Shown here: positions 5,359-36,478 of the stretch, piece by piece
Layout: each line of letters begins with the position of its first letter
Position numbering within the stretch: the first letter of the stretch is position 1
Assembly (NCBI RefSeq): GCF_036346595.1
Contig: NZ_CP107834.1
Span: forward strand, 6,572,001-6,636,000
DNA from: Streptomyces sp. NBC_00525
GTDB taxonomy: Bacteria > Actinomycetota > Actinomycetes > Streptomycetales > Streptomycetaceae
Length of the DNA stretch: 64,000 nucleotides
Direction: 5' to 3'
Notes under the pieces: generated by a model
Databases searched by the model: none
What the model was told of the DNA's origin: nothing
What the model saw: only the letters and a program-made list of their open reading frames with translations
Made by a program: the position numbers and the translations under genes

Positions 5359-5381
5359 CGGCACGAGCGGCCGGCGAACCG

Positions 5382-6926: not shown

Positions 6927-6953
6927 ACCCCGCCCGCCCGCGCCGCGCCCGGT

Positions 6954-20732: not shown

Positions 20733-22040
20733 TCAGTGGCTCGGGCCCCGCTCCGCCAGATGGGCGAGGAACCAGGCGCGGGCCCGTTCGGCGACTTCGT
20801 CCAGGGCGCCCGGCTCCTCGAAGAGGTGGGTGGCGCCGGGGACCACGTCGAGCCGGCTCTCGCAGCGCAGCTCGGCCAGCGCCCGGCGGTTCAGCTCCAG
20901 CACCTCGGAGTCCCGGCCGCCCACCAGGAGCAGCGTGGGGGAGCGGACCTGGCTCAGCCGGGCCCCCGCCAGGTCGGGGCGGCCGCCGCGCGAGACGACC
21001 GCGCCGATACCCGTGTCCCGGTCCGCGCCGACGACGGCCGCCGCCTGCAACGCGGCCGCCGCGCCCGTGCTGGCGCCGAACACGCCGATGGGCCCGGCGG
21101 AGCGCTCCCGCAGCCAGGCGACGGCGTCGGCCAGCCGCCCGGCGAGGGCGAAGATGTCGAAGACATGACCGCCCTCGGCCTCCTCGCCGGCGGTGAGCAG
21201 GTCGAACAGCAGCGTGCCGAGGCCGGCCCGGTTCAGCGCCGCCGCCACCGACCGGTTGCGCGGGCTGTGCCTGCTGCTGCCCGAGCCGTGCGCGAACACG
21301 ACGAGCGCCCCGGTGTCCCCGGGCGGGGTCAGGGTGCCCGGCAGTTCCACCCCGCCCGCCCTCACCAGCACCTCGCCGGCCGGCCGGGGCCCGGCCCGCC
21401 GCGCCGCCCGCGCCAGCAGCGCCACGACCTCCTCGTCCGGGGTCTGGCCGAAGTCCCGGTACCACTCGCCCACCGCGGAGAACCCGGCCGGCGCCGACAG
21501 GCACACCAGCTCGTCCGCCTCCTCCCGCAGCCGGGCCGCGGCGGAGGGCGGGGCGACCGGCACCGCCAGCACCACATGCGCGGCGCCCTGCGCACGGGCC
21601 ACGGCGCAGGCGGCGAGCGCGGTCGCGCCGGTGGCGATGCCGTCGTCCACGAGGACCGCCGTGCGTCCTTCGAGCGGGATACGCGGCCGGTCGCCCCGGA
21701 ACGCCCGGGCCCGGCGCAGCAGTTCGGCCTCCTCGGCCCGCTCGACGGAGGCGATCTCGGACTCGGACACCCCCGCCCGGCGCACGATGTCGTCGCTGAT
21801 GACCCGCACCCCGCCCTCGCCGATCGCGCCGAAGCCCAGCTCCGGATGGCGCGGGACGCCGAGCTTGCGGACCACGATCACATCGAGCGGCGCGCCGAGT
21901 TCCTGGGCGACGCGGAAGGCGACCGGCACTCCGCCGCGCGGCAGGCCGAGTACGACCGGGTCGCTCTGCGCGAGGGGGTCAAGGGCCTCGGCGAGCCGCC
22001 GGCCCGCGTCGGCACGGTCGGCGAAGAGCACGGGACTCAC
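20733..22040 (-). CDS. Phosphoribosyltransferase-alpha/beta hydrolase fusion
   Basis: This is a two-domain protein of 435 residues. Residues 1 to about 210 form a type-I phosphoribosyltransferase with the PRPP loop TAVLVDDGIATGATALAA. Residues about 215-435 form a dienelactone-hydrolase-like alpha/beta hydrolase (VVFAHGSGSSRHSPRNR; IGVFGASTGAAAAL with the nucleophile Ser). The two domains occur as separate or fused genes in actinobacteria, and the function of the fusion is not established. The GTG at 22040 lies opposite the metallophore-like operon promoter. Confidence 0.85.
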   Translation of the reverse strand: MSPVLFADRADAGRRLAEALDPLAQSDPVVLGLPRGGVPVAFRVAQELGAPLDVIVVRKLGVPRHPELGFGAIGEGGVRVISDDIVRRAGVSESEIASVERAEEAELLRRARAFRGDRPRIPLEGRTAVLVDDGIATGATALAACAVARAQGAAHVVLAVPVAPPSAAARLREEADELVCLSAPAGFSAVGEWYRDFGQTPDEEVVALLARAARRAGPRPAGEVLVRAGGVELPGTLTPPGDTGALVVFAHGSGSSRHSPRNRSVAAALNRAGLGTLLFDLLTAGEEAEGGHVFDIFALAGRLADAVAWLRERSAGPIGVFGASTGAAAALQAAAVVGADRDTGIGAVVSRGGRPDLAGARLSQVRSPTLLLVGGRDSEVLELNRRALAELRCESRLDVVPGATHLFEEPGALDEVAERARAWFLAHLAERGPSH

Positions 22041-22202
22041 CCCTGTCCGGAACCACGCACGGCGGCCACCCGCCCGGTGCCGGGCGGCACACGTACCTCA
22101 TTCCAATCAACCGCGCCTGCGGGAGGTACGCAAATCGGTGGCACGACACCCGACTCCGACCGAACCACCCACCCGTGGACGGCCCCGGACCACAACTCGT
22201 AG

Positions 22203-22231
22203 ATGACAATGAAAACGATTGTCGTTAACGT
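22203..22231 (+). promoter_or_regulatory. Promoter with embedded Zur-box-like operator
   Basis: ATGACA (22203-22208) and TAACGT (22226-22231) are 17 bases apart. The sequence AATGAAAACGATTGTCGTT (22208-22226) fills the spacer. It differs at two positions from the AATGAAAACGATTTTCATT form that I associate with actinobacterial Zur (zinc uptake regulator) sites. A bound repressor would block polymerase directly. This predicts low-zinc induction of the downstream operon. No iron-box-like sequence is seen here. Confidence 0.6.
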
Positions 22232-22313
22232 ATGGCGGGTCGGGTCGCACGGCCCGCCGTCCGGGCCGAGGTGTGCCCGCATTCCTGCAACCGTGCGTTC
22301 AAGAGGGGGAGTT

Positions 22314-23570
22314 GTGGCTCATCTGCTGATGGTCGAGAGCTGGGTCGGGTCGATGAGCAGACTGCTGCCACGGGCCATCCGGGAAGGCGGGCACGAATTC
22401 ACCTTCCTCACCCGCGATCTGCACCACTACCTGCGCGCGGCGCCCGAGGGCACCCAGCACCCGCTCCTCGGCGCCCGGCACCTGCTGACCGGCCCCACCA
22501 ACGACCCCGCCCGGCTGCTGCCCTTCGCCGAACGGGCCCACCGGGCACTCCGGTTCGACGCCGTGATCTCGTCCTGCGACTACTACCTCCCCCTGGCCGC
22601 CCGTATCGCGCGTCGGCTGGGCCTGCCCGGCCCGGACCCCGAGGCGATGGAGAACGCCTGCCGCAAGGACGCCACACGCGACGTCCTCGCCGCGGCCGGA
22701 GTGCCCGGACCGCGCTACGCGGTCTGCGCCGACTGGGTCGAGACCACGAAGGCGGCCGCGAGGATCGGGCTGCCGCTGGTCGTCAAGCCGGTCGACCTGT
22801 GCGCCGGAATGCTCGTACGCCGGGTGGACGACGAGACCCAGCTCGCCGAAGCCCACCGCGCCCTCGCCGATTTCCCGGTCAACGCGCGCGGCCAGCGCCG
22901 CAACCCCGCGGTCCTGCTGGAAGAACTGCTGCACGGCCCCGAGGTCAGCGTCGAGACCGTCACCCACCGGGGCACGACCCGTGTCGTCGGGATCACCGAC
23001 AAGAGCGTCGGCGGGGCCCCGGCCTTCGTGGAGACCGGGCACATGTTCCCGGCCGCGCTCACCGAACCGGACGCCCGCGCCGTCCGCGACACCGCGGTGC
23101 GGGCGATCGAGGCGCTCGGCCTGGACGACGTCGTCGCGCACACCGAGATCAAACTGACGCCCACCGGCCCCCGCGTGGTCGAGGTCAACCCCCGCCCGGC
23201 CGGCAACCGCATCACCGAACTCGTCCGGCATGTGACCGGCATCGACATCACCGCCGCCTGCGTCGGCGTCGCCCTCGGCCGGGAACCGGACCTGCGCCCC
23301 CACGACACCGGCCTGCGCAGCGCCGCCATCGGCTTCCTGGTGCCCGAGACCGGGGGAGTTCTGGACGGCGTCGACGGCGGCGACACGGTCGGCGGGGCCC
23401 GCGACGTGCTGGAGCTGAGCCTCGCCGCGCCCGGCACCCGCGTCACCGCGGACGGCAGCAACAACGGCTACCTCGGGCATGTGATGGCCGGCGACCCCGC
23501 GGGACCGGGCGCCCGCGCCCGCGTGGAGGCGCTGCTGTCGGGCCTGCGCCCCCGGGTGGTGGCCCGATGA
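22314..23570 (+). CDS. ATP-grasp ligase (amino-acid/peptide ligase type)
   Basis: This 418-residue ATP-grasp enzyme should form an amide bond through an acyl-phosphate intermediate. A Rossmann-like N-terminus (VAHLLMVESWVGS) is followed by the ATP-grasp fold: LPLVVKPVDLCAGM with an ATP-binding Lys, LLEELLHGPEVSVE, and the metal-binding VVEVNPRPAGNRI. It resembles L-amino-acid ligases rather than acetyl-CoA carboxylases. I chose the GTG at 22314 behind GAGGGGGAG, since earlier starts would lie in the promoter. Its TGA overlaps the next ATG. It is the first gene of a ten-gene operon. The substrates are unknown. Confidence 0.8.
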   Translation: MAHLLMVESWVGSMSRLLPRAIREGGHEFTFLTRDLHHYLRAAPEGTQHPLLGARHLLTGPTNDPARLLPFAERAHRALRFDAVISSCDYYLPLAARIARRLGLPGPDPEAMENACRKDATRDVLAAAGVPGPRYAVCADWVETTKAAARIGLPLVVKPVDLCAGMLVRRVDDETQLAEAHRALADFPVNARGQRRNPAVLLEELLHGPEVSVETVTHRGTTRVVGITDKSVGGAPAFVETGHMFPAALTEPDARAVRDTAVRAIEALGLDDVVAHTEIKLTPTGPRVVEVNPRPAGNRITELVRHVTGIDITAACVGVALGREPDLRPHDTGLRSAAIGFLVPETGGVLDGVDGGDTVGGARDVLELSLAAPGTRVTADGSNNGYLGHVMAGDPAGPGARARVEALLSGLRPRVVAR

Positions 23571-24418
23571 CCGCCGCCGCCCACCCCACCACGGCCCCGG
23601 CCCCGGTCCCGGCCCCCGGCTCGTGCGAGGAGCTGATGTGCCGGGTCCTGGCCGGTGCGTACGGACCCGACCCGCGCACCCTCCGCGTCAGCACCGCGTT
23701 CACCACCCGCCAGTCCGTCCGGCACTCCGGACGCGCCGGCGGCTACCGCAACGAGGTGCTGAGCCTGCGCATCGCCGGGGCGGTCGGCTCCTGCGCCGTC
23801 GAACCGGGCGAACTGCCCGACAGCGCCGCCGACGACTGCGCCGGCAGGGACGCCGCCACGCTGCTCACCCATCCGCTGCGGCCGGTACGGATCGCCGCCC
23901 TCGACGCCGTCCTGATGCACGCCCTGCCGCACGGCCCGGCCTCCGGCGCCCGGTCGCTGCCACTGCCTGCGGGCGACTCGCTGGCGAAGTCGCGGGCCAG
24001 GGCGCACGCCGTCGTCGGCCTGCTCGACCTGCCGCCCGGCCGCACCGTGCTCGTCGTCGGCGTCGTCAACTCGCTCCTGGAGGCGCTGCGCGAGCGCGGG
24101 CTGCGCTACACACCCTGCGACCTCAAGGGCGGCACCACCGAGTGGAACGAACCCGTGCGCACGGACGCGGCGGGCCCGCTCGGCCGGTGCGACGCCGTCC
24201 TCGCCTCCGGGATGACGCTCGGCAACGGCAGCTTCGAACGGTTCCGTACCCACGCCCAGCGGTACGGCAAGCCGCTCGTGATGTTCGCCCAGACGGGCAG
24301 CGCCGTCCTGCCGCGCCTCATCGGCTCCGGAGTCACCGCCGTGTCCGCCGAGCCGTACCCCTTCTTCTGGCTCGACGGCGGACCCGGCACCATCCACCAG
24401 TACGGAGGCACCCGGTGA
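23567..24418 (+). CDS. DUF4213/DUF364-like protein (putative heavy-metal chelation family)
   Basis: This 283-residue protein matches, by pattern, the DUF4213 N-terminal and DUF364 Rossmann-like C-terminal domains, which are described as putative heavy-metal chelation. HPLRPVRIAALDAVL (about 102-116) and RTVLVVGVVNSLLEALRERG lead to DAVLASGMTLGNGSFERF, where the 'SG.TL.NG' turn is the best landmark. Its biochemical role is unknown. Translational coupling to the ligase before it and the PLP enzyme after it argues for a part in the same pathway. Confidence 0.65.
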   Translation: MTAAAHPTTAPAPVPAPGSCEELMCRVLAGAYGPDPRTLRVSTAFTTRQSVRHSGRAGGYRNEVLSLRIAGAVGSCAVEPGELPDSAADDCAGRDAATLLTHPLRPVRIAALDAVLMHALPHGPASGARSLPLPAGDSLAKSRARAHAVVGLLDLPPGRTVLVVGVVNSLLEALRERGLRYTPCDLKGGTTEWNEPVRTDAAGPLGRCDAVLASGMTLGNGSFERFRTHAQRYGKPLVMFAQTGSAVLPRLIGSGVTAVSAEPYPFFWLDGGPGTIHQYGGTR

Positions 24419-25503
24419 CCACGGCACTTCTGCGCCCCGCCGCCAACCGCGAACTGCTCGGCCTGGTCGGGCGCACCCCGCTCGCCCGCATCACCGCACC
24501 GCTGCCCTGCCCGCACCCCGGTTTCTGGGCCAAGCTCGAAGGCTTCGGCGTCGGCGGCATGAAGGCACGCGCCGCCGTGTCGATGCTCCGGGGTGCCGAG
24601 GAACGCGGCGAACTCCTGCCCGGCGCACCGGTCGTGGAGTCGACCTCCGGCACCCTCGGCATCGGCCTGGCCTTCGCCGGCCAGGCCCTCGGCCACCCCG
24701 TCGTCCTGGTCGGCGACACCGAACTCGAACCGTCCATGCGGCAGTTGCTGCGCGCCCACGGGGCCCGGCTGGAGCTCGTCGACCGGCCCGCCGAACGGGG
24801 CGGCTGGCAGGCGGCCCGGCTGACCCGGCTCCGCGAACTGCTGGCCGCGCTGCCGGACGCGTACTGGCCCGACCAGTACAACAACCCCGACAACACCGCG
24901 GGCTACGCGTCCCTCGCCGCCGAGATCGCCGGCCGGCTCGACCGGGTCGACGTGCTGGTGTGCAGCGTCGGCACCGGCGGACACAGCGCCGGGACCGCCG
25001 CCTGGCTGCGCAGGCAGTGGCCGGCGCTGCGGCTGATCGGCGTGGACGCCACCGGCTCGACGATCTTCGGCCAGCCCGCCCGCCCCCGGCTCATGCGCGG
25101 CCTGGGCAGCAGCATCCACCCCCGCAACGTCGCCCACGACCGCTTCGACGAGGTCCACTGGGTCGGCCCCGCCGAGGCCGCCGACAGCTGCCGCAGACTC
25201 GCCCGGCACAACTTCGTCAGCGGCGGCTGGAGCACCGGCGCCGTCGCCCTCGTCGCCGCCTGGGCCGCCCGCGTACACCCCGAAGCGGTCGTGGTCACCG
25301 TCTTCCCGGACGGCCCCCACCGCTACCTCGGCAGCGTCTTCGACGACGGCTTCACCACCCTGCACGGACTGCGCACGGCCACCCCGGCGACCCGCCCCCT
25401 CGAAATCTCCCACCCGCAGGCGGTCGAGGCCACCGGCTGGACCCGCTGCACCACCGTCACCGACCCCGCCCGCATCCCGCACGCCCCCCGGGAGCACCGA
25501 TGA
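24415..25503 (+). CDS. Cysteine-synthase-like PLP-dependent enzyme
   Basis: This 362-residue fold-type II PLP enzyme of the cysteine synthase/CBS group has a recognisable STSGTLGIGLAFAG phosphate-side loop, SVGTGGHSAGT and GLGSSIHP. The lysine expected to bind PLP lies in GVGGMKARAA, where most relatives have an SVKDR-like motif, so the active site is divergent. Relatives in metallophore clusters make 2,3-diaminopropionate precursors, but the divergence means the product cannot be assumed. The GTG at 24415 overlaps the previous stop and is preceded by GGAGG. Confidence 0.78.
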   Translation: MTTALLRPAANRELLGLVGRTPLARITAPLPCPHPGFWAKLEGFGVGGMKARAAVSMLRGAEERGELLPGAPVVESTSGTLGIGLAFAGQALGHPVVLVGDTELEPSMRQLLRAHGARLELVDRPAERGGWQAARLTRLRELLAALPDAYWPDQYNNPDNTAGYASLAAEIAGRLDRVDVLVCSVGTGGHSAGTAAWLRRQWPALRLIGVDATGSTIFGQPARPRLMRGLGSSIHPRNVAHDRFDEVHWVGPAEAADSCRRLARHNFVSGGWSTGAVALVAAWAARVHPEAVVVTVFPDGPHRYLGSVFDDGFTTLHGLRTATPATRPLEISHPQAVEATGWTRCTTVTDPARIPHAPREHR

Positions 25504-26558
25504 AGTGCACCCTGCGCACCACACGGCTGCGGCTCGCCGAGCCGCTGCGGATCTCCCGCTCCACCACGACCGCCCGGCACGCCGTCGTCCTGTCCGTCGA
25601 GCACCAGGGCCTCCACGGCCACGGCGAAGCCGTCACCAGCGTGTACTACGGGCTCGACACCGCGACCCTGCGCCAGTGCCTGCACCGGTCCGCGCACGCC
25701 CTGGCCCGCTTCCCCGACCCGGAAACCGCCCTCGCGGCCCTGCCCGACACCGCCCCCGGCACGCCCCCGGCGGTCACGGCCGCCGTCGAATCCGCGCTCC
25801 TCGACCTCGCGGGCCGGCGCGCCGGACAGCCCGTCCACCGGCTCCTCGGCGCCGCCGCCTCGCCCGCCGCCGCGACCGCCCGGACCATCGGCATCACCGC
25901 GCCCCCGCACGCCGCCGCCCTCGCCACCCGCCTCGCGGAGCGCGGATTCACGGTCCTCAAACTCAAGGCCGGGACCACCGATCCCGAGGACGACCTCGCA
26001 CGGGTGCGTGCGGTACGCGCCGCCGCCCCCGGCGTACGCCTGCTGCTCGACCCGAACGGCGGCTGGAGCCCGTCCGCCGCGCCCCGGCTGCTCGGCCGCT
26101 TCGCCGAACTCGGCGTCGAGGCCGTGGAGCAGCCGGTCCCGCCCGGCGACCCCGAAGGACTGGCCCGCCTCGCCGCGCGCTCACCGCTGCCCGTCGTCGC
26201 GGACGAGGACGCCGTCTCGTACGAGGACGCCGCCCGCCTCGCCGGCCGCGTCCACGGGATCAACGTCAAGCTCCCCAAATGCGGCGGCCCCGGCGCGGCC
26301 CTGCGCATCGCCGCCCTGATCGCCGGAAGCGGAACGGACCTCATGCTGGGCTGCCTCACCGCCAGTTCGCTCGGCCTCGCCCCCGCCGTCCACCTCGCCG
26401 ACCGCGCCCGCTGGACCGACCTCGACGGACACCTCCTCCTCGCCCACGACCCCTGGACCGGCATCGGCGGCGACGACGGCACCGTACGCGCCGCAGCGCT
26501 TCCCGGACTCGGCGTCCGCCCGAACCCGCCGCTCGACCCCGACGAGGAGCGGCCGTGA
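25500..26558 (+). CDS. Enolase-superfamily epimerase (dipeptide epimerase type)
   Basis: This 352-residue enzyme of the muconate-lactonizing subgroup resembles L-Ala-D/L-Glu (dipeptide) epimerases. The KxK catalytic motif is in TVLKLKAG. The three metal ligands are in LLLDPNGGW, VEAVEQPV and VVADEDA, and the opposing general base Lys is in INVKLPKCGG. It should abstract an alpha proton from a carboxylate substrate using Mg. Beside an ATP-grasp ligase, epimerisation of a ligated dipeptide is a sensible guess. The ATG at 25500 overlaps the PLP gene stop. Confidence 0.85.
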   Translation: MKCTLRTTRLRLAEPLRISRSTTTARHAVVLSVEHQGLHGHGEAVTSVYYGLDTATLRQCLHRSAHALARFPDPETALAALPDTAPGTPPAVTAAVESALLDLAGRRAGQPVHRLLGAAASPAAATARTIGITAPPHAAALATRLAERGFTVLKLKAGTTDPEDDLARVRAVRAAAPGVRLLLDPNGGWSPSAAPRLLGRFAELGVEAVEQPVPPGDPEGLARLAARSPLPVVADEDAVSYEDAARLAGRVHGINVKLPKCGGPGAALRIAALIAGSGTDLMLGCLTASSLGLAPAVHLADRARWTDLDGHLLLAHDPWTGIGGDDGTVRAAALPGLGVRPNPPLDPDEERP

Positions 26559-27817
26559 CGATCCGGCGCGAGATACGCGGCTTCAGCCCGGCCGTCCGCC
26601 TCCTGCTGGTCAACCAGTTCGGCGTGAACACCGGCTTCTACCTGCTCATCCCCTACCTCGCCGTCCATCTGAGCCGCGACCTCGGCATGTCCGCCGCAGC
26701 CGTCGGCACCGTGCTCGGCGTACGCAACCTCAGCCAGCAGGGCCTCTTCGTCATCGGCGGCTCCGCGGCGGACCGCCTCGGCGCACGCGGCGTGATCATC
26801 ACCGGCTGCGCCCTGCGGACCGTGGGCTTCGGCCTGTTCGCCCTCGGTGACGGAACGACGGTACTGCTGGCCGCCTCGGTGCTCAGCGGGCTCGCCGGCG
26901 CGCTGTTCAACCCGGCCGTCCGCGCCTACCTCGCGCAGGAGGCGGGCGAGCGCAAGGCCGAAGCCTTCGCCCTGTTCAACGTGTTCGCGACGACCGGGGC
27001 CCTCGTCGGCCCCCTCATCGGCAGCGCGCTGCTCCTCGTCGACTTCCGCGCGGCGGCCCTGACCGCGGCGGCGCTCTTCGCGCTCCTCACCGCCGCCCAG
27101 GCCCTGACCCTGCCTGCGGTACCGGTCGCCCCCGGCCGCGCGAGCGTCCTCGCCGACTGGCGCGAAGTCGTGGGCAACCGGAGGTTCATGGCGTTCGCGT
27201 CGGCCATGGTGGCCATGGTCACGCTGGAGAGCCAGCTCTATCTGCTGCTCCCCGAGGGCGCCCGCCTCGCCACCGGATGGGACGGTGCCGCCGCACCGGT
27301 CCTCCTCGTGGCGACCCTCTCCGGACTCGCACTCCAGCTGCGCATCACCCGGACCCTGCGCCGGCGCGGCAGCCGGGCCGGCTGGATCGGCGCCGGTCTC
27401 GCGCTGATGGCCGCCGCCTTCGTACCCCCCATGCTCCAGGCGGCCGGCCGGGCGCCGGAGCCGGGCGGCATGCCGGGCGCGGCGCTGTCCCTGCTCCCGG
27501 TGCTGGTGGCCGCCCTGCTCCTGCAGACCGGCCTCATGGCCGCCCAGCCCTTCGTGATGGAACTGGTGCCCGCCTTCGGCCGGTCCGGGCTCACCGGCAC
27601 CTACTTCGGGGTCTTCTACGTCGTCTCCGGCCTCGCGGCCGCCCTGGGCAACGCCGCCATCGGCTGGGCCATGGACACCGGGGCGCGTACCGGCGCCGGA
27701 TGGCTGCCGTGGGCGTGCTGCCTGGGGCTCGGACTCGCCTCGGCCGCCGCCGTCGCCCGACTGCACCGCACGGGCGCGCTGCCCGGCCGGCCGGCTCCCG
27801 TGCCGGCCGGGGCATGA
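26555..27817 (+). CDS. MFS transporter, 12 TM, probable product exporter
   Basis: This 420-residue major facilitator has about 12 hydrophobic segments, with the loop-2/3 signature as GGSAADRLGARGVIITG near residues 65-82. Position between biosynthetic enzymes and importer genes suggests export of the operon product. The GTG at 26555 overlaps the epimerase stop. It is shorter than the DHA2 exporter at 5382 and belongs to a different subfamily. Confidence 0.82.
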   Translation: MTIRREIRGFSPAVRLLLVNQFGVNTGFYLLIPYLAVHLSRDLGMSAAAVGTVLGVRNLSQQGLFVIGGSAADRLGARGVIITGCALRTVGFGLFALGDGTTVLLAASVLSGLAGALFNPAVRAYLAQEAGERKAEAFALFNVFATTGALVGPLIGSALLLVDFRAAALTAAALFALLTAAQALTLPAVPVAPGRASVLADWREVVGNRRFMAFASAMVAMVTLESQLYLLLPEGARLATGWDGAAAPVLLVATLSGLALQLRITRTLRRRGSRAGWIGAGLALMAAAFVPPMLQAAGRAPEPGGMPGAALSLLPVLVAALLLQTGLMAAQPFVMELVPAFGRSGLTGTYFGVFYVVSGLAAALGNAAIGWAMDTGARTGAGWLPWACCLGLGLASAAAVARLHRTGALPGRPAPVPAGA

Positions 27818-27828
27818 GGGGGGCCGCG

Positions 27829-28623
27829 ATGAACCACCGGAACCTGCTCACCGACAACCCCGCCCTGTACGAGACGCGCTTCCCCGACCCTGAAAGGCTC
27901 GCCGGACGCTGGACCGAGGACCGCCTGCGCGGCCACGGGTGCGGCGCCCGCGTCCTGGACATCGGCTGCGGCACCGGCCGCGACGCCGCCCACCTGCACG
28001 CCGCCGGCCGTACGGTGACCGGCGCGGACCTCTCCGACGCGATGCTCCGTTACGCCGCCCGGCACCACCCCGGCCCCCGCTACGTCCACGCCGACCTGCG
28101 CCGATTCGACCTGGGAGCGGGAAACTTCGACGCGGTCGTCTGCCTGGACAGCGCGCTGCTCTACTGCCGGACCGACGCCGAACTCGACAGCTGCCTCGCC
28201 TCCTGCCACCGCGCCCTGGCCCCCGGCGGCCTGCTCGTCGCGGAAATGCGCAACGGCGCCTACTTCCTCGACGGCGCCGGCACCCTCGGCGGCCCCGCCG
28301 TCCACACCTTCACTCACGACGGCGTCACCTACCGCTCCGTCACCCGGCTGCGCGTGGACGCCGCCCCGCGCCTCCTGCACCGCAGCCGCACCTGGACCAC
28401 GGACGACGGATCGCCCCCGGTCGAACAGCGCTCCGCCTGGCGCCTGCTGCCACCCCCCGAACTACGACGCGCCGTCACCGCCGCCGGCTTCGAGGTCCTG
28501 GCCCTGCACGACGGACCCGGCCCGCGCACCGAACCCGCCTGGCGCGAAGGCGCGACACCCGCGGGCACGACGACCGGCGACCGGCTCCACCTCATCGCCC
28601 GCCGCACGGCCCCGCACGCCTGA
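27829..28623 (+). CDS. SAM-dependent methyltransferase, class I
   Basis: This 264-residue methyltransferase has motif I ARVLDIGCGTGRDAAHLH, the acidic strand-2 end in VTGADLSDAML and the post-II motif FDAVVCLDSALLY. I chose the ATG at 27829 because GAGGGGGG lies five bases upstream. An ATG at 27814 overlapping the exporter stop is also possible and would add five residues. It probably tailors the operon product on O or N; the acceptor is not evident. Confidence 0.82.
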   Translation: MNHRNLLTDNPALYETRFPDPERLAGRWTEDRLRGHGCGARVLDIGCGTGRDAAHLHAAGRTVTGADLSDAMLRYAARHHPGPRYVHADLRRFDLGAGNFDAVVCLDSALLYCRTDAELDSCLASCHRALAPGGLLVAEMRNGAYFLDGAGTLGGPAVHTFTHDGVTYRSVTRLRVDAAPRLLHRSRTWTTDDGSPPVEQRSAWRLLPPPELRRAVTAAGFEVLALHDGPGPRTEPAWREGATPAGTTTGDRLHLIARRTAPHA

Positions 28624-28662
28624 GCCCGGCCCCGCAACCCACCGCACAGCAAGGACACCGCC

Positions 28663-30297
28663 ATGCACCACGACCCCCACAGCCACCCCCTCCGCCCCGT
28701 CCACCGCGGCCCGGCCCCGGCAGACCCCGGGCGCCTGTCCGGCCTGCACCGGCGCGGCTTCCTCACCGCGTCGGCGGCGGGCGCGCTCGCCCTCTCCGGC
28801 TGCGCGGGCGCCGCGGGCCCCGACCCCTCCGACGCGAAGGCGGAGACCGGCACGCCGAGGCGCGGCGGCCGGCTGCGGGCCGCCTTCGCCGGGGGAGGGG
28901 CGGGCGAAACCCTGGACCCCCACCTGAGCAACCTGTTCGCCGACGCCGCACGCGCCAAAGCCCTGTACGACAAGCTCGCCGACTACGGCGCCGACCTGTC
29001 CGCGCGGCCCCGCCTCGCCGCGTCCTGGGAACCCGACGCCACCCTGAAGCGGTGGAAGGTCTCCCTGCGCGACGCGGAATTCCACGACGGGAAGCCCGTC
29101 ACAGCCGCCGACGTCCTGCACAGCTACCGGCGCATAGCCGACCCGAAGCGCGCCTTCCGGGCCAGGGCCTCCCTCGAACCGATCGACCTCGCCGCCAGCC
29201 GGGCCACGGACGACCGGACCGTCGAGTTCGTCCTCAAGCGCCCGACCGCCGAATTCCCCAACGTCATGGCCGCGTTCGGCGCCTCCATCATCCCCGCGTC
29301 GGCCCGCGAGGGCGACTTCGACCACGCGCCCGTCGGCAGCGGCCCGTTCCGCCTGGTGTCCTTCGCACCCGGCCGCTCCACCCTGCTGCGCCGCAACGAC
29401 GCCTACTGGGACGGCGCGCCCCATCTGGACGAGCTGGAGTTCGTCGTCGCCGACGAGGAGTCCGCCCGTGTCAACGCCCTGCTCGGCGGCCAGGTGGAGT
29501 ACGCCCACGAGCTGAACCCCACGACCGCCCGCGCCCACGAACACGGCGGGCACGTGACCATCATCCGGCTGCGCGACAGCGCCATGCAGTCCTTCGCCAT
29601 GAAGACCGACCGGCCGCCCTTCGACGACCCCCGCGTCCGCCGCGCCCTGTTCCTCGTCGCCGACCGTCCCGAACTCGTCCGCAGCGTCCTGTCCGGCGCC
29701 GGCGGGATCGGCAACGACCTCTTCGGCAAGGGCTACGAGTACTACGCCGACGGCCTCCCCCAGCGCGAACAGGACATCGACCGCGCCCGGCGGCTCCTGA
29801 AGGAGGCGGGCGCCGGCGATCTGCGCCTCACCCTGGACACCTCACCGGTCGCCACCGGATTCACCGAGGCGGCCGCCGTCTTTCGCGACCAGGCCGCGCG
29901 GGCCGGCATCACCATCCGGGTCCGCACCGGGAACAAGGACACCTACTGGAAGGACATCCTCGACTCGGGCACCCTCTGCTGCTACCGGTCCGGGGCCATG
30001 CCCATCGAGTCGCACCTCTCCCAACGGCTGCTCACCGACTCCACCACCAACGCCACCCATTGGCGCCACCGCGACTTCGACGCCCTCTACCGGCAGGCCC
30101 AGTCCACCCGCGACCCGCAGCGGCGCGCCGACGTCTACGCCCGCATGCAGCGCCGCCTCCGCACCGAGGGCCCCTTCCTCGTCTGGGGATTCGCCGACTG
30201 GATTCTCGGCACCGCCCGCAACGTCCGGGGCGTCGAGCGGCACGCCCCCGCCAACACCCTCGACTGGGCCCGCTTCGACAAGGTGTGGCTGGCGTGA
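28663..30297 (+). CDS. ABC transporter substrate-binding lipoprotein, family 5
   Basis: This 544-residue SBP_bac_5 protein has a Tat signal (HRRGFLTASAAGALALSG) with lipobox LSGC. The family segments LAASWEPDATLKRWKVSLRD and EFHDGKPVTAADVLHSY are present. Because it follows biosynthetic and export genes, it likely captures the extracellular, perhaps metal-loaded, product. It starts 39 bases after the methyltransferase stop with an AAGGA site upstream. It is clearly a paralogue of the binding protein at 35-1627 but not a near-identical copy. Confidence 0.88.
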   Translation: MHHDPHSHPLRPVHRGPAPADPGRLSGLHRRGFLTASAAGALALSGCAGAAGPDPSDAKAETGTPRRGGRLRAAFAGGGAGETLDPHLSNLFADAARAKALYDKLADYGADLSARPRLAASWEPDATLKRWKVSLRDAEFHDGKPVTAADVLHSYRRIADPKRAFRARASLEPIDLAASRATDDRTVEFVLKRPTAEFPNVMAAFGASIIPASAREGDFDHAPVGSGPFRLVSFAPGRSTLLRRNDAYWDGAPHLDELEFVVADEESARVNALLGGQVEYAHELNPTTARAHEHGGHVTIIRLRDSAMQSFAMKTDRPPFDDPRVRRALFLVADRPELVRSVLSGAGGIGNDLFGKGYEYYADGLPQREQDIDRARRLLKEAGAGDLRLTLDTSPVATGFTEAAAVFRDQAARAGITIRVRTGNKDTYWKDILDSGTLCCYRSGAMPIESHLSQRLLTDSTTNATHWRHRDFDALYRQAQSTRDPQRRADVYARMQRRLRTEGPFLVWGFADWILGTARNVRGVERHAPANTLDWARFDKVWLA

Positions 30298-31247
30298 ACG
30301 AGACCGGGCGCCGGATCACGCGCCGGCTGATCCTCGGGGGCGCACAGATTGCCGCCGTCGTCCTGCTGGTCTTCGCCGCCACCGAGGCCCTGCCCGGCGA
30401 CGCCGCCGTCGCCCTCGCCGGCGACCAGCCCGACCCGGCCCGCATCGAAGCCGTCCGCACGGCCCTGCGCCTGGACCGGCCGGCCCACGAACGCCTGCTG
30501 GACTGGACGGCCGGACTGCTCCACGGCGACCTCGGCGTCTCGCTCACCTCCGGCCGGCCGGTCGCCGCCGCCCTCGCCGACGGCTTCGGCCCCACCCTGC
30601 TGCTCGCCGTGCCCACGGTCCTCCTGCTCGTCCCGGCCGGCATCGGCCTCGGCGTGCTCGCGGCCCGGCGCGAGGGCGGCGCGGTGGACCGGGCCGTCAG
30701 CGCGGTGCTGATCGGCCTCTACGCCGTACCCGAATTCGCCCTCGGCGCCCTGCTGGTGGCGCTCTTCGCCCTGCGGCTCGGCTGGTTCCCGCCGACCGCC
30801 GTGGGGTACGGCACCGAGCTGGCGGCCCACCCCGAAGCGCTCGTCCTGCCCGTCCTCGTCCTGCTCGCCCGCCCGGTCTGCTCGCTCGCCCGGCTCGTCC
30901 GCGCCGGCATGCTCGACGCGCTGGCCTCTCCGTACGCCGCCCACGCACGCCGCTGCGGCATCTCCCGCAGCCGCGTCCGCTACGCCCACGCCCTCCCCAA
31001 CGCCCTCGCCCCGGCCGCCCAGCAACTCGCCCGCACGGTCGACTGGCTGCTGTGCGGGGTGATCGTCGTCGAGGCCCTGTTCGTGATCCCCGGACTCGGC
31101 ACCCTCCTGATGAACGCCGTCGCCGAGCGCGACCTGCCCACCGTGCAGGGGCTCGCCGTCGTGTTCGGCCTCGTCACCGTCCTGCTCAACCTGGCCGCCG
31201 ATCTGACCACCCACCGCCTCGCCCCCCGGACGGCGGTGGCCGCGTGA
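30294..31247 (+). CDS. ABC transporter permease, DppB/NikB-like
   Basis: This 317-residue permease has about six helices, the DppB-type loop LDWTAGLLHGDLGVSLTSGRPV and the EAA loop HARRCGISRSRVRYAHALPNA. The GTG at 30294 overlaps the TGA of the binding protein gene (GTGA). It forms the translocation pore with the next gene product. Confidence 0.88.
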   Translation: MNETGRRITRRLILGGAQIAAVVLLVFAATEALPGDAAVALAGDQPDPARIEAVRTALRLDRPAHERLLDWTAGLLHGDLGVSLTSGRPVAAALADGFGPTLLLAVPTVLLLVPAGIGLGVLAARREGGAVDRAVSAVLIGLYAVPEFALGALLVALFALRLGWFPPTAVGYGTELAAHPEALVLPVLVLLARPVCSLARLVRAGMLDALASPYAAHARRCGISRSRVRYAHALPNALAPAAQQLARTVDWLLCGVIVVEALFVIPGLGTLLMNAVAERDLPTVQGLAVVFGLVTVLLNLAADLTTHRLAPRTAVAA

Positions 31248-32131
31248 TGGCCGTCGCCGTCGCCCGCTCCCGGCGCGGCCTCAAACGCGTCGTCGTCGGC
31301 CCGCCGCACGATCCCGCGCGCACCCGTGCGCGGAGCGCCCTGCGGTACGTTCCCGGCCTGCTCGTCCTCGGCGTGCCGCTGCTCATCGCGCTGGCCGGGC
31401 CGCTGTTCGCCGGCGACGCCGGACCGCGCGGCACCTCGCTGACCACCGGCGACGGCCATCCGCTCGGCACCGACTTCACCGGACGCGACGTGCTGCGGGA
31501 GGTGCTGCTCGGCGGCCGGTCCGTCGTCACCGTCGCCCTCGCGGCGACGGCCCTCACCTACGCGGTGGCGCTGCCCATCGGCTTCGTCTGCGCGCTCACT
31601 CGCCGGACCTGGCTGGAGGAGTCGCTGATGCGCCCGCTGGACGTCCTGCTGTCGGTGCCCTCCCTCCTCGTCGTGGTGCTGGTATCCGCCGCCGTACAGC
31701 CGGGCGGGGCCGGCGCGGCGGTCGTGGTCGCCGTCGTCGGCATCCCGGACGCGGTCAGGATCGTCCGTGCCGCCGGGGCGGAGGCCGCCTCGCGCCCGGC
31801 GGTGGAGGCGCTGCGCCTGCAGGGCGAGAGCTGGGCGCGGACGGCCCTCGGCTACGTCGGACGCGCCATGGGCCGCACCCTCGCCGCCGACATCGGCGTA
31901 CGCCTCACCGGAGCGGTCCACCTCGTCGCCACCGCGGCCTTCCTCGGCGTCGGCGTCGCACCGGACGCCGCCGACTGGGCCGTGATGGTGGACCGCAACC
32001 GCACCGGACTGTCCGTGCAGCCCTGGGCGACCGTGGTGCCCGCCCTCCTGATCGTCGCCCTCACCATGGGCGGCAACCTGCTCGCCGACGCCGCCCTCGC
32101 CCGCCCGCCCCGCACGGAGAAGGACCGATGA
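31247..32131 (+). CDS. ABC transporter permease, DppC/NikC-like
   Basis: This 294-residue second permease carries the GTDFTGRDVLREVLLGG motif of DppC-type subunits and about six helices. I use the ATG at 31247, overlapping the previous stop by one base. A GTG three bases earlier is equally possible. The EAA loop is less canonical than in the first importer (ALRLQGESWARTALGYVGRA), and asparagine and proline are missing from its end. Confidence 0.85.
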   Translation: MAVAVARSRRGLKRVVVGPPHDPARTRARSALRYVPGLLVLGVPLLIALAGPLFAGDAGPRGTSLTTGDGHPLGTDFTGRDVLREVLLGGRSVVTVALAATALTYAVALPIGFVCALTRRTWLEESLMRPLDVLLSVPSLLVVVLVSAAVQPGGAGAAVVVAVVGIPDAVRIVRAAGAEAASRPAVEALRLQGESWARTALGYVGRAMGRTLAADIGVRLTGAVHLVATAAFLGVGVAPDAADWAVMVDRNRTGLSVQPWATVVPALLIVALTMGGNLLADAALARPPRTEKDR

Positions 32132-33633
32132 CACCCGAACACACCACCACGGAGCCCGTCGCCGTGATCGAGGGACTGCGCGTGGAGATCGGCGGACGCA
32201 CCGTGCTCGACGGCGTGGACCTCCGCCTGCGGCCCGGCCGCATCACCGCGCTGACCGGCGGATCGGGCAGCGGCAAGACGACCACCGGGCTCGCCCTGCT
32301 CGGCGAGTACCCGCCCGGAGCGCGGGTGACCGGCCGCGTACGCGCACAGCGGGGCCTGATCGGCTACGTGCCCCAGCACCCGGCGGCCGTGCTCAACCCG
32401 GCCCGCCGCGTCGGCGCACTCCTCACGGACATCGCCCGCACCCGCGTGCGGCACCTGCCCCGCTCCCGGCGCCGGGCCGCCGCGCGGGAACGGGTGCTCG
32501 ACGCGCTGGCCCGCGTCCGGCTGCCGGCGGACGGACGGCTGTTGCGCCGCTTCCCCCACCAGCTCTCCGGCGGACAGCAGCAGCGCGTGGTGCTCGCCCA
32601 GATGCTGCTGCTCGGCGCCCGCGCCGTCGTCGCCGACGAACCGACCACCGGACAGGACGCGCTCACCAAGCGCGGCGTCGTGGACCTGCTGGCCGACGTG
32701 GCCCGGCAGGGCATCGCCGTCCTCCTGCTCAGCCACGACCGGGACGTGGTGCGCGCGCTCGCCGACGAGGTGGTCGTCCTGCACGACGGCCGGGTACGCG
32801 ACGCCGCCCCGGCGGCCCTGCCCGCCACCCGGACCCCGCTGGGCGGCACGGGAAGCGGCGAAGCGCTGCTCGACGTGCGCGCACTGGTCGCACGGCACGG
32901 CCGGACGACCGTCCTCGACCGCGTCTCGCTCACCGTCCGCACCGGGGAGTGCCTCGCCGTCGTGGGCCGCTCCGGAAGCGGCAAGACGACACTGGCGCGC
33001 TGCCTGAGCGGCCTGCACCCGCGCCACGACGGGGCCGTCCTCCTCGGCGGCCGGACCCTCCCGCCCGGCCTGCGCGACCGCTCCCGGAGCCGGCTCGCCG
33101 AGGTGCAGTACGTCTTCCAGGACGCGAAGGCCGCCTTCGACGCGTACCGCCCGGTCCTCGACCAGGTGGCGCGGACCGCGGTACGGCTGCGCGGAGCGGC
33201 CCCGGCCGCGGCGAGGCGCGAGGCGCTGACGCTGCTGGCCGCCCTGGGACTCGCGGCGGAGGAGGCGGCCCGCCGCCCCGGAGCCCTGTCCGGCGGCGAA
33301 CTCCAGCGTGCGGCCCTGGCCCGAGCCGCCCTGGCCCGCCCCGGGGTCCTGCTGTGCGACGAGATCACCTCGGGCCTGGACCCCCGGTCCCGCGACACGG
33401 TCCTCACCCTGCTCGACGGCCTGCTGCGCTCGGGGCGCGTCGAGGCGCTGATCCTGATCACCCACGACCTGGACACCGCCGCCAGGGCGCACCGCATCGC
33501 GGTGATGGACGCCGGCAGGGTGGTGGAGACGGGCCCGACACCACGGGTGCTGGCCGCGCCGGAGCACCCGTTCACCAGGGAGCTGCTGGCCGCGCGTCCA
33601 CCGGCTTCCGTTCCGGGCACACCGGTGTGCTGA
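32128..33633 (+). CDS. Fused double-ATPase subunit of peptide/metal ABC importer
   Basis: This 501-residue protein has two nucleotide-binding domains. The first has Walker A GGSGSGKTT, signature LSGGQQQRV and Walker B AVVADEPTTG. The second has GRSGSGKTT, LSGGELQRA and VLLCDEITSG. It is about 120 residues shorter than the paralogue at 3481 and lacks the cysteine-containing C-terminal oligopeptide module after domain one. That fits a nickel/metallophore-type rather than an oligopeptide-type ATPase. The ATG overlaps the permease stop. Confidence 0.88.
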   Translation: MTPEHTTTEPVAVIEGLRVEIGGRTVLDGVDLRLRPGRITALTGGSGSGKTTTGLALLGEYPPGARVTGRVRAQRGLIGYVPQHPAAVLNPARRVGALLTDIARTRVRHLPRSRRRAAARERVLDALARVRLPADGRLLRRFPHQLSGGQQQRVVLAQMLLLGARAVVADEPTTGQDALTKRGVVDLLADVARQGIAVLLLSHDRDVVRALADEVVVLHDGRVRDAAPAALPATRTPLGGTGSGEALLDVRALVARHGRTTVLDRVSLTVRTGECLAVVGRSGSGKTTLARCLSGLHPRHDGAVLLGGRTLPPGLRDRSRSRLAEVQYVFQDAKAAFDAYRPVLDQVARTAVRLRGAAPAAARREALTLLAALGLAAEEAARRPGALSGGELQRAALARAALARPGVLLCDEITSGLDPRSRDTVLTLLDGLLRSGRVEALILITHDLDTAARAHRIAVMDAGRVVETGPTPRVLAAPEHPFTRELLAARPPASVPGTPVC

Positions 33634-33666
33634 ACTGTCCGGGTACCGTTCGATTCAGGAGCATCC

Positions 33667-34962
33667 TTGAACAGCTACCGGCAGCCCGGCCTCGTCCTCA
33701 CCGACCACCGCTTCACCGTCCCGCTGGACCACGCCGACCCCGGCGGTGAGCAGATCGAGATCTTCGGCCGGGAGATCGTGGCCTCGTCGCGGGCGGACCA
33801 GGACCTGCCCTGGCTGCTCTACCTGGAGGGCGGCCCCGGCTTCGGCGCCCGCCGCTTCACCGGCGCGGAGGCCTGGCTCGGACGGGCGGTACGGGAATTC
33901 CGGGTGCTCCTGCTCGACCAGCGCGGCACCGGCCTGTCCACGCCCGCCAACCGGCAGACGCTGCCGCTGCGCGGCGGCCCCCGCGAGCAGGCCGACTACC
34001 TCGCGCACTTCCGCGCGGACAACATCGTGCGCGACTGCGAGGCCATCCGCCCCCGGCTCACCGGCGGCGCCCCCTGGACGGTCCTCGGCCAGTCCTTCGG
34101 CGGCTTCTGCGCCGTGCGCTACCTCTCGGCCGCGCCCGAGGGGCTGAACACCGTCCTGATCACCGGCGGCCTGCCCTCCCTGGACGCCCACGCGGACGAC
34201 GTCTACCGGGCCGCGTACCCCCGGATCGAACGCAAGGTCGCCGCGCACTACGCCCGCTACCCGCAGGACGTCGCACGCGCCCGCGAGATCACCGCCCACC
34301 TCGCGGAGCACCGCCCGGAGAGCGCCGGACACCGGCTGACGCCCGAGGGCTTCCAGTCCCTCGGCATCCTGCTCGGCGGCGGCAGCGGCAGCCACCAGCT
34401 GCACTACCTCCTGGAGAACGCCTTCGTCCGCACCCCGCACGGCACCGAACTGTCGGACACCTTCCAGGAGGGCATGCGCGCCGCGACCTCCTTCGCCGGA
34501 CACCCCCTGTACGCCGTGATGCACGAGGCCATCTACGGCCAGGGCGGCCGGGCCACCGACTGGTCGGCCGAGCGGGTTCGCGCCGAGTTCCCGCAGTTCG
34601 ACGCGGCAGAGGCCTTCGCGGGCGGCGGCCCGGTCCTCTTCACGGGCGAGAGCATCCACCCGTGGCACTTCGAGGTGGACCCGGCGCTGCGCCCGCTGCG
34701 CGAGACCGCCGGCCTGCTCGCGGCCCGCACCGACTGGGCGCCCCTGTACGACCCCGCGCGGCTCGCCGCCAACGAGGTGCCCGTGGCCGCCGCCGTCTAC
34801 CACGACGACATGTACGTCGACACCGCCCACGCGCTGCGCACCGCCGCCGCGATCCGGGGACTGCGCACCTGGGTGACCGACGAGTTCGAGCACGACGGGC
34901 TGCGCGCGGGCGGACCGCGCGTCCTGGACCGGCTGCTCGCCCTGGTCCGCGACGAGGTCTGA
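33667..34962 (+). CDS. Proline-iminopeptidase-like alpha/beta hydrolase (S33 family)
   Basis: This 431-residue cytoplasmic alpha/beta hydrolase has the iminopeptidase landmarks LEGGPGFG (oxyanion region), LLDQRGTG, the nucleophile elbow GQSFGG and a His near the end in FEHDGLR. The start is a TTG preceded by AGGAG at five bases. It lies 33 bases after the ATPase and is probably co-transcribed with it. If the operon product is a peptide-like metallophore, this enzyme could cleave it after re-import. Confidence 0.82.
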   Translation: MNSYRQPGLVLTDHRFTVPLDHADPGGEQIEIFGREIVASSRADQDLPWLLYLEGGPGFGARRFTGAEAWLGRAVREFRVLLLDQRGTGLSTPANRQTLPLRGGPREQADYLAHFRADNIVRDCEAIRPRLTGGAPWTVLGQSFGGFCAVRYLSAAPEGLNTVLITGGLPSLDAHADDVYRAAYPRIERKVAAHYARYPQDVARAREITAHLAEHRPESAGHRLTPEGFQSLGILLGGGSGSHQLHYLLENAFVRTPHGTELSDTFQEGMRAATSFAGHPLYAVMHEAIYGQGGRATDWSAERVRAEFPQFDAAEAFAGGGPVLFTGESIHPWHFEVDPALRPLRETAGLLAARTDWAPLYDPARLAANEVPVAAAVYHDDMYVDTAHALRTAAAIRGLRTWVTDEFEHDGLRAGGPRVLDRLLALVRDEV

Positions 34963-34968
34963 GACAGC

Positions 34969-35006
34969 GCCGGGGCCGGCCGCGTACCGGCGCGGCCGGC
35001 CCCGGC
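34969..35006. terminator. Bidirectional terminator at end of metallophore-like operon
   Basis: A perfect 16-bp stem (34969-34984 with 34991-35006) and a 6-base loop lie between convergent genes. No other strong hairpin is seen between 22314 and here, which supports one long transcription unit. Confidence 0.85.
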
Positions 35007-35020
35007 GTGTGCCGGCGGCC

Positions 35021-35593
35021 TCAGCCCTGCAGGGCGTCCAGCGTGGTGCGCAGGTCCGCCGCCGAGCGCGGCGCCCGGTTGTGCGGAAGCCGCGACAGGG
35101 CCGCCGCCATGCCGCAGGTGTTGGTGACGGCGGAGAAGACGAGCCCGGAGCCGACCCCGGCCGACAGCCAGCGCGCCGCCGGATACCGGAGCCCCGCCAG
35201 CAGACCGGCCACCACGAGCGACCCGGCGGCGAGCCGCACCTGGCGCTCCATCGGCCAGACCGTCCGCGCACCCTCCGGACGCTCCAGTCCGTGGCCCGCG
35301 GTCTCCCAGGCGGAGGTGCCGCCGCCGAGCGTCGCGGCTTCGATGTCGGCCGCCGCCAGGACGTCGCAGGCGCGCGTCGAGCGGGTGCCCGAGGCGCAGA
35401 CCACGAGCAGGGCGCCGCGGGCGGACGCCGACTTGAGGGCGGGCAGCGCCTCGTCGAGACGGTCGAGCGGTATGTTCAGCGCCCCCGGCACATGGCCGGT
35501 CGCGTACTCACCGGGTGCCCGTACGTCGATCACGGTGAACTCCGCGAGCCGGGCGGCCGCCTGTGCGGGGGAGAGGGAAACGGGGGTGGTCAC
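35021..35593 (-). CDS. Rhodanese-DUF2892 fusion protein
   Basis: This 190-residue protein combines a rhodanese domain (1 to about 110), with active-site Cys66 in VVCASGTRS, and a C-terminal DUF2892 module with hydrophobic helices from about 115. It should handle sulfane sulfur at the membrane. The GTG at 35593 follows AAAGGAAC. A CsoR/CstR-type operator lies 69 bases upstream, so control by a thiol- or copper-sensing repressor is probable. Confidence 0.85.
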   Translation of the reverse strand: MTTPVSLSPAQAAARLAEFTVIDVRAPGEYATGHVPGALNIPLDRLDEALPALKSASARGALLVVCASGTRSTRACDVLAAADIEAATLGGGTSAWETAGHGLERPEGARTVWPMERQVRLAAGSLVVAGLLAGLRYPAARWLSAGVGSGLVFSAVTNTCGMAAALSRLPHNRAPRSAADLRTTLDALQG

Positions 35594-35661
35594 GAGCTGT
35601 GTTCCTTTCGTTCACCGGGTATGCGGCGGATATCGCTCCCGCCTGCCCCGGATCGCCCAGG

Positions 35662-35677
35662 ATACCCCCCTGGGTAT
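35662..35677. promoter_or_regulatory. CsoR/CstR-type operator
   Basis: ATACCC and GGGTAT form an inverted repeat around CCCT. This is the GC-centred, ATACC-flanked form bound by the CsoR/CstR/RcnR family of copper, persulfide or nickel sensors. On the minus strand it overlaps a TATCCT hexamer that could serve as the -10 of the rhodanese gene. The regulator gene is not in this window. Confidence 0.65.
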
Positions 35678-35737
35678 GAAGGCCGAGGTGTCGCGGATTC
35701 CGGCCCGCCCCCGCCCCGTGCCCGTTAGCCTGCCGAT

Positions 35738-36478
35738 ATGACCGATCAGACCGATCAACTGAAGCCCATGCCCGAGGACTGGCAGCGCGCGCTCGCCGTC
35801 GTGGCCCACCCCGACGATCTGGAGTACGGCTGTGCGGCGGCGGTGGCCGGCTGGACCGACGCCGGGCGTGAGATCACGTATCTGCTCGCCACCAGGGGCG
35901 AGGCCGGCATCGACACGCTGGAACCCGAGAAGTGCGGACCCCTGCGCGAGCAGGAGCAGCGCGCGAGCGCGGCCGTCGTGGGCGTCACGGACGTCGAGTT
36001 CCTGGACCACCGTGACGGGGTGATCGAGTACGGCATCCCGCTGCGCCGCGAGATCGCCGCCGCCATCCGCAGACACCGCCCCGAGCTGGTCATCACGCTC
36101 AACCACCGGGACACCTGGGGCGGCGTCCTCTGGAACACTCCCGACCACCGCGCGGTCGGCCGGGCCACCCTGGACGCGGCGGCCGACGCGGGCAACCGCT
36201 GGATCTTCCCGGAACTGGTGGAGCAGGGCCTCCAGCCGTGGGACGGAGTGCGCTGGGTGGCGGTGGCCGGATCGTCCTCGCCGACGCACGCGGTGGACGC
36301 CACCGCCGGTCTCGAACGGTCCGTGCGGTCCCTCCTGGCCCACCGCACCTACATCGAGGTCCTGACGGACGAGGAGCCCGAGGCGTACTGCCGGGACTTC
36401 CTCACCGGCTACGCCCAGGAGGTGGCCCCGCGTTTCGGTGGCCGCCCGGCCGTCCCGTTCGAACTCTTCACCCGCTGA
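35738..36478 (+). CDS. PIG-L family deacetylase (LmbE-like)
   Basis: This 246-residue zinc-dependent N-deacetylase of the PIG-L/MshB superfamily has its metal motif at residues 23-29 (AHPDDLE), with supporting LDHRDG and NHRDTW segments. Relatives act on GlcNAc-inositol, mycothiol conjugates or antibiotic intermediates. The substrate here cannot be told. A hairpin terminator follows at once. Confidence 0.88.
   Translation: MTDQTDQLKPMPEDWQRALAVVAHPDDLEYGCAAAVAGWTDAGREITYLLATRGEAGIDTLEPEKCGPLREQEQRASAAVVGVTDVEFLDHRDGVIEYGIPLRREIAAAIRRHRPELVITLNHRDTWGGVLWNTPDHRAVGRATLDAAADAGNRWIFPELVEQGLQPWDGVRWVAVAGSSSPTHAVDATAGLERSVRSLLAHRTYIEVLTDEEPEAYCRDFLTGYAQEVAPRFGGRPAVPFELFTR

Follow-up and report, generated by a model that had tools for sequence, protein, structure and literature searches.

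A conserved, probable Zur-controlled zincophore operon with an unusual biosynthetic gene set in Streptomyces, and a related cluster type in actinomycetes

The window analysed here, a stretch of 64,000 nucleotides (C1:6572001-6636000) of the 7.1 Mb genome of Streptomyces sp. NBC_00525, contains ten co-directional genes on the plus strand (A-J, 22314-33633) that probably constitute a Zur-controlled zincophore operon. As the product of this operon we favour a diaminopropionate-like dipeptide or aminocarboxylate zincophore that is made independently of NRPS enzymes. The operon would belong to a known theme, that of zincophore clusters under Zur control, but its set of biosynthetic genes is unusual. 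Beyond this locus, we lean towards the broader view that the pairing of a DUF364 gene and an SbnA-like PLP gene marks a so far unrecognised zincophore family in actinomycetes, independent of NRPS, NIS and opine-like routes, in which the DUF364 protein would be a metallophore-building enzyme. This family would comprise at least two builds, one with ligase, epimerase, methyltransferase and a NikA-type importer (A-J, type I) and one in which a GHMP kinase usually occurs alongside an importer of the siderophore type (type II). The features of the window locus are as follows.

22203..22231, plus strand: possible promoter, noted by eye, with a -35 ATGACA (22203-22208), a 17-base spacer containing the operator and a -10 TAACGT (22226-22231)
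22207..22227, no strand assigned: Zur-type operator CAATGAAAACGATTGTCGTTA, lying some 90 bases before the ligase start and forming the core of a conserved 28-base element (about 22203-22230)
22314..23570, plus strand: A, ATP-grasp L-amino acid ligase, 418 aa, GTG start (PF13535 and PF18603 LAL_C2, above cut-offs)
23567..24418, plus strand: B, DUF364 protein, 283 aa (PF04016, 29.5 bits, cut-off 23)
24415..25503, plus strand: C, SbnA-like PLP beta-substitution enzyme (PALP; best family TIGR03945, 244 bits, cut-off 350)
25500..26558, plus strand: D, enolase-superfamily, dipeptide-epimerase-like enzyme (MR/MLE enolase; best NCBIfam models DgcA and L-Ala-D/L-Glu epimerase, below cut-offs)
26555..27817, plus strand: E, MFS exporter, MdtH-like (PF07690; best NCBIfam model MdtH, below cut-off)
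27814..28623, plus strand: F, SAM-dependent methyltransferase (PF13649); the start may be some codons later
28663..30297, plus strand: G, substrate-binding lipoprotein of family 5, peptide/nickel/opine (PF00496, SBP_bac_5)
30294..31247, plus strand: H, permease (PF00528; nickel-type permease models, below cut-offs)
31244..32131, plus strand: I, permease (PF00528)
32128..33633, plus strand: J, dual ABC ATPase, NikD/NikE- and CntD/CntF-like (PF00005 in two stretches; NCBIfam below cut-offs)
33667..34962, plus strand: S33-type peptidase (alpha/beta hydrolase), outside the unit; absent after J in relatives and a common Streptomyces gene

As annotated, eight of the nine A-J junctions are overlaps of 4 bases and the remaining one, F-G, is a gap of 39 bases. 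A scan of 22000-36000 gave a single terminator-like site, on the minus strand, against a chance expectation of 1.6, and nothing pointing to a terminator within A-J on their coding strand; this agrees with the preliminary description, which had reported no strong internal hairpins. That description had also placed an eleventh gene in the operon. The ten genes stand, but the eleventh, encoding the S33-type peptidase, falls outside the unit. It begins 33 bases after J in the window and is missing there in all seven relatives whose sequence continues for about 7-8 kb past J. Strong matches to it (E <1e-100) occur in 56 of 61 sampled genomes of the genus Streptomyces, with and without DUF364, and in all eight genomes where it was compared with a close DUF364 gene on the same contig (G010, G027, G029, G047, G049, G050, G051, G055) the two are more than 100 kb apart. 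The peptidase was therefore rejected as a member of the system, and the proposal that it hydrolyses the product finds no support. A start of the first gene at 22203 was likewise dropped, since the ATG there touches the Zur-type operator, and the conserved ligase part, where homology in relatives begins, opens at the GTG at 22314, which is preceded by GAGGGGG.

The gene families originally named from the translations (ATP-grasp ligase, PLP enzyme, epimerase, MFS, methyltransferase and ABC importer) were recovered in Pfam and NCBIfam; C, D, E, G, H and J each fall short of the curated cut-off of the best-matching NCBIfam model, which counts against the zincophore reading. A has the combination that identifies an L-amino acid ligase, ATP-grasp plus LAL_C2, both above gathering scores in a Pfam scan run on the longer frame from 22203, and its closest solved structures are BL00235 and BacD. 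For B, a DUF4213/DUF364 label had been given; only the DUF364 part was detected, and DUF4213 gave no match. The predicted model of B (pLDDT 87.9) agrees with the profile score, its best fold matches being the solved DUF364 members 3l5o (TM 0.58/0.65) and 3npg; further fold matches were left aside for their low TM-scores, and a sequence profile against solved structures returned only a weak match to 3npg (E 0.47). To our knowledge, DUF364 has had no assigned function since its 2010 structure.

C falls short of the 350 bits that define the SbnA equivalog family, although that family remains its best and SbnA is its best solved structure; the lysine of GGMKAR is retained without exception in the orthologues that cover the site (88 loci aligned). 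The operon has no SbnB-like gene, so free diaminopropionate is not assured. In dipeptide epimerases, the functional residues are the KxK motif, D/E/D metal ligands, a second lysine and a DxD near the barrel end. Compared with the solved enzymes 3iji, 4gfi, 3jva, 1jpm and 3u9i, D retains KxK, D, E, D, K and DLDG, and is best described as dipeptide-epimerase-like. In F, conservation among orthologues starts near residue 8. The importer encoded by G-J resembles nickel, opine and metallophore systems in both NCBIfam models and solved relatives. The best NCBIfam models for G are of the nickel type, with CntA weaker and all below cut-offs, and its solved relatives are AgaA and NikA; by eye, G carries a twin-arginine-like signal, RRGFLTA, and an LSGC. 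The peptide/nickel/opine-binding family to which G belongs also includes an aminopolycarboxylate binder (PMC7312458).

Comparison with known systems sets this gene combination apart. Pfam and NCBIfam searches of the ten genes (gene I in Pfam only) found no match to an NRPS, to a nicotianamine synthase (CntL-like) or to an opine dehydrogenase (CntM-like), and none to SbnB or a NIS synthetase was seen among the ten in Pfam and NCBIfam. CntL-like and CntM-like genes are the defining features of an opine-like metallophore cluster. Their absence separates A-J from the opine-like zincophores staphylopine and pseudopaline, to whose importers the CntD/CntF-like ATPase and, weakly, the CntA-like binding protein bear a resemblance. 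Staphyloferrin B provides the closest family and the closest solved structure of C in SbnA, but C lies below the SbnA cut-off, A-J have neither the SbnB-like nor the NIS-synthetase match, and their control is of the Zur type. A shares ATP-grasp and LAL_C2 with the L-amino acid ligases BL00235 and BacD, from which it is nevertheless distant. The EDDS (aes) cluster of Amycolatopsis japonicum is likewise a set of actinomycete chelator genes, found through their Zur sites (PMC12161575, citing Spohn 2016; PMC6103462). It is not known to contain genes for a DUF364 protein, an L-amino acid ligase or a dipeptide epimerase. Coelibactin of S. coelicolor also belongs to a Zur-repressed Streptomyces zincophore cluster (PMC5472717), but is a nonribosomal peptide, whereas A-J have no NRPS match. 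The metallophore classes of antiSMASH 7 include aminopolycarboxylic acid, opine-like and NRP (PMC10320115). Among the matches listed in the open-licence PMC literature, titles and abstract openings contained no description of this operon or of type II, which is weak evidence of absence.

Zinc regulation, as originally proposed, is strongly supported by the sequence upstream of A. The Zur-type operator at 22207-22227 differs from the published actinobacterial Zur 21-mer at 2 positions and is both the best match in the genome and its sole site at no more than 2 mismatches. As in a Zur regulon, this box lies near the candidate promoter; a consensus promoter scan did not call the -35/-10 pair at 22203-22231. 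At up to 3 mismatches the 21-mer occurs at ten places in the genome, namely at the operon, at znuA, at an importer at 3647179, at 6202899 and in six identical copies, which we take to be the six rRNA operons. The reversed 21-mer gave no forward and 3 reverse matches at this threshold, so that lone 3-mismatch sites are weaker evidence than the 2-mismatch site. At znuA the 21-mer is adjoined by a match to the 15-mer; the ZnuA profile match starts at 1791233 and the listed ORF opens at about 1791101, which puts the box against the start of znuA or across it. The genes that follow read, by eye, as znuC, znuB and zur. The 3-mismatch site at C1:3647179 (L157:680) closely precedes a second peptide/nickel-type ABC importer, which is placed before a cysS-like gene and has a binding protein and a permease weakly similar to G and H; this is perhaps a second zinc-complex importer.

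The operator region was compared across the best 80 of 296 encoding loci in named genomes, a selection that leans to close relatives (all titles are Streptomyces except one, Wenjunlia). All 80 have a Zur-type box upstream of A, mostly at 80-130 bases from its start (range 53-247). The 28-base element matches at 19-27 of 28 positions in these 80 and at 18 or fewer in 382 control regions, which carry the weight of the comparison because the consensus was drawn from the same loci. The 15-bp motif published for S. coelicolor Zur (PMC5472717) reached 9 or more of 11 positions upstream of A in 75 of the 80 loci, compared with 40 of 1509 control regions and 21 of 1600 shuffles. Applied genome-wide with free inner positions, the 15-mer was uninformative (1204 matches per strand at no more than 2 mismatches, and 296 for the reversed pattern), and the 21-mer was therefore used in its place. 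At up to 3 mismatches the 21-mer is found in 72 of the best 80 of 296 loci and its reverse in none; its absence from the other 8 counts against the reading.

In each of the same best 80 of 296 loci A-J are collinear on one strand, and 69 contain all ten genes, the others being cut by contig ends (10) or a scaffold gap (1). Both gene order and Zur boxes exceed chance. With putative synthesis genes, exporter, binding lipoprotein and importer in one conserved unit, the metallophore logic advanced at the outset is strongly supported by gene content. More widely, a DUF364 match was present in 68 of 151 sampled genomes of the genus, of which 43 have a close match, 26 a distant one and G010 both. A type I profile matched 7 of 396 phylum genomes, six in the same genus and one weakly; a mixed profile matched 36 of 393 class genomes, in 10 of 122 genera, with 16 matches in the same genus and 16 strong and 4 weak ones outside it. 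One of the outside loci, from another actinomycete family (L212, f108), has A-J in the same order with a 3-mismatch Zur box just before A. Its A and D-J are 50-62% identical to those of the window, and its B and C are matched by type II queries (41 and 30%) as well as by window queries.

The type II set comprises 27 loci, all 26 distant DUF364 matches of the 151-genome sample and one from the phylum sample. An SbnA-like PALP gene lies near DUF364 in 26 of them, and the remaining locus is cut by a contig end. A GHMP kinase is present in 21 and thus not in every locus, and a siderophore-type binding protein or importer in 23 (Pfam was run on type II loci L137, L139 and L140 only, and the Peripla_BP_2 check on L139 and L140 only), while two loci, L137 and L171, have a relative of G-J. 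For the tested type II PLP enzymes NCBIfam puts SbnA first, below cut-off, and the kinase gets no firm name; we would guess that it supplies a phosphorylated amino acid for the PLP enzyme. A homologue of the MFS exporter of L140 was found in only 8 of the 27, which counts against the reading, and export in type II is therefore often unseen. The Zur 21-mer occurs at up to 3 mismatches in 23 of the 27 loci; the reversed and 20 permuted patterns gave no match in the same 0.5 Mb. Among the other four, a box is present at 4 mismatches in L142 and in the extension of L171, and at 1 mismatch in the extension of L137; L169 stops where its contig does.

Outside the genus, 14 of the 16 strong DUF364 matches were fetched, and 13 proved to be type II, the other being the type I locus L212. 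The 21-mer was found at up to 4 mismatches in all 14 and at up to 3 in 13, and in the type II loci in 13 of 13 and 12 of 13, respectively. Ten permuted patterns gave 7 matches in all at up to 4, and the reversed pattern none. A kinase match occurs in 11 of these 13 type II loci.

If A-J form a zincophore operon, zinc-loaded Zur would bind the predicted operator and silence the genes, and zinc starvation would release it. C would then make a diaminopropionate-like or N-substituted amino-carboxylate, which A would join to a second amino acid; D would invert one centre, F would methylate the product, and B may perform one step of the synthesis. The MFS protein E would export the product, lipoprotein G would capture its zinc complex, and H-I-J would bring that complex back in. 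A ligase-made, epimerised and methylated dipeptide-like chelator is compatible with the predicted enzymes. All steps after derepression are read from enzyme families, from which we infer their order, the structure of the product and its metal specificity.

The operon might instead make a dipeptide antibiotic or antimetabolite induced by zinc starvation, a bacilysin-like product of ligase and exporter that is merely under Zur, with an importer that takes up peptides. The relationship of A to BL00235 and BacD and the drug-efflux type of exporter E would suit such a product, but we regard it as unlikely: binding protein, two permeases and ATPase belong to the unit in all 69 full-length loci of the best 80 of 296, 23 of the 27 type II loci have a binding protein of the siderophore type alongside the DUF364/SbnA-like core, and Zur boxes are found throughout. 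A similarly small chance attaches to a metallophore for another metal (nickel, cobalt or copper), or one of broad spectrum, with Zur as regulator. Importers of the nickel/staphylopine type, to which G-J belong, carry several metals, which is in its favour. The operator, however, is of the Zur type, and no iron-type or nickel-type box was found in 81 upstream regions, the window's included; in 12 type II or remnant loci there was just a single weak nickel-type palindrome, at a distance from the cluster. Recycling of murein peptides or scavenging of peptides on the model of Bacillus ykf/dpp, raised as an alternative in the preliminary description, would fit the relationship of D to L-Ala-D/L-Glu epimerases and the Opp/Dpp-like importer, but it is highly improbable, as Pfam and NCBIfam found no muropeptide hydrolase among A-J to accompany epimerase and importer, the S33 gene is outside the unit, the PLP synthase, the ligase, the methyltransferase and the exporter speak for synthesis, and control is of the Zur type.

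In S. coelicolor, zinc has a strong influence on differentiation and on the production of antibiotics (PMC5472717). A common route to zincophores outside the NRPS and opine-like classes would be easily missed; DUF364 relatives of this kind occur in 68 of the 151 sampled genomes of the genus and in other actinomycete families. Such a route would also give DUF364 a testable role and may yield new zinc chelator chemistry, and a Zur box with a DUF364/SbnA-like gene pair offers a ready rule for genome mining.

Several individual loci deserve mention. One genome (G010, L153) keeps A-E but lacks F-J, and its only box there is at 4 mismatches, which counts against the reading; it also carries a type II cluster. 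Another (G099, L148) has an extra weak DUF364 relative (30% identity) without a PLP or ligase neighbour, which again counts against it, and a nearby gene looks by eye like an NRPS adenylation domain. In L160 (G005), a type II cluster at about 2868-9036 includes a HemK-like methyltransferase and has two Zur-type boxes upstream; by eye, the genes downstream include one that resembles an oxygenase and one that resembles a Fur/Zur regulator.
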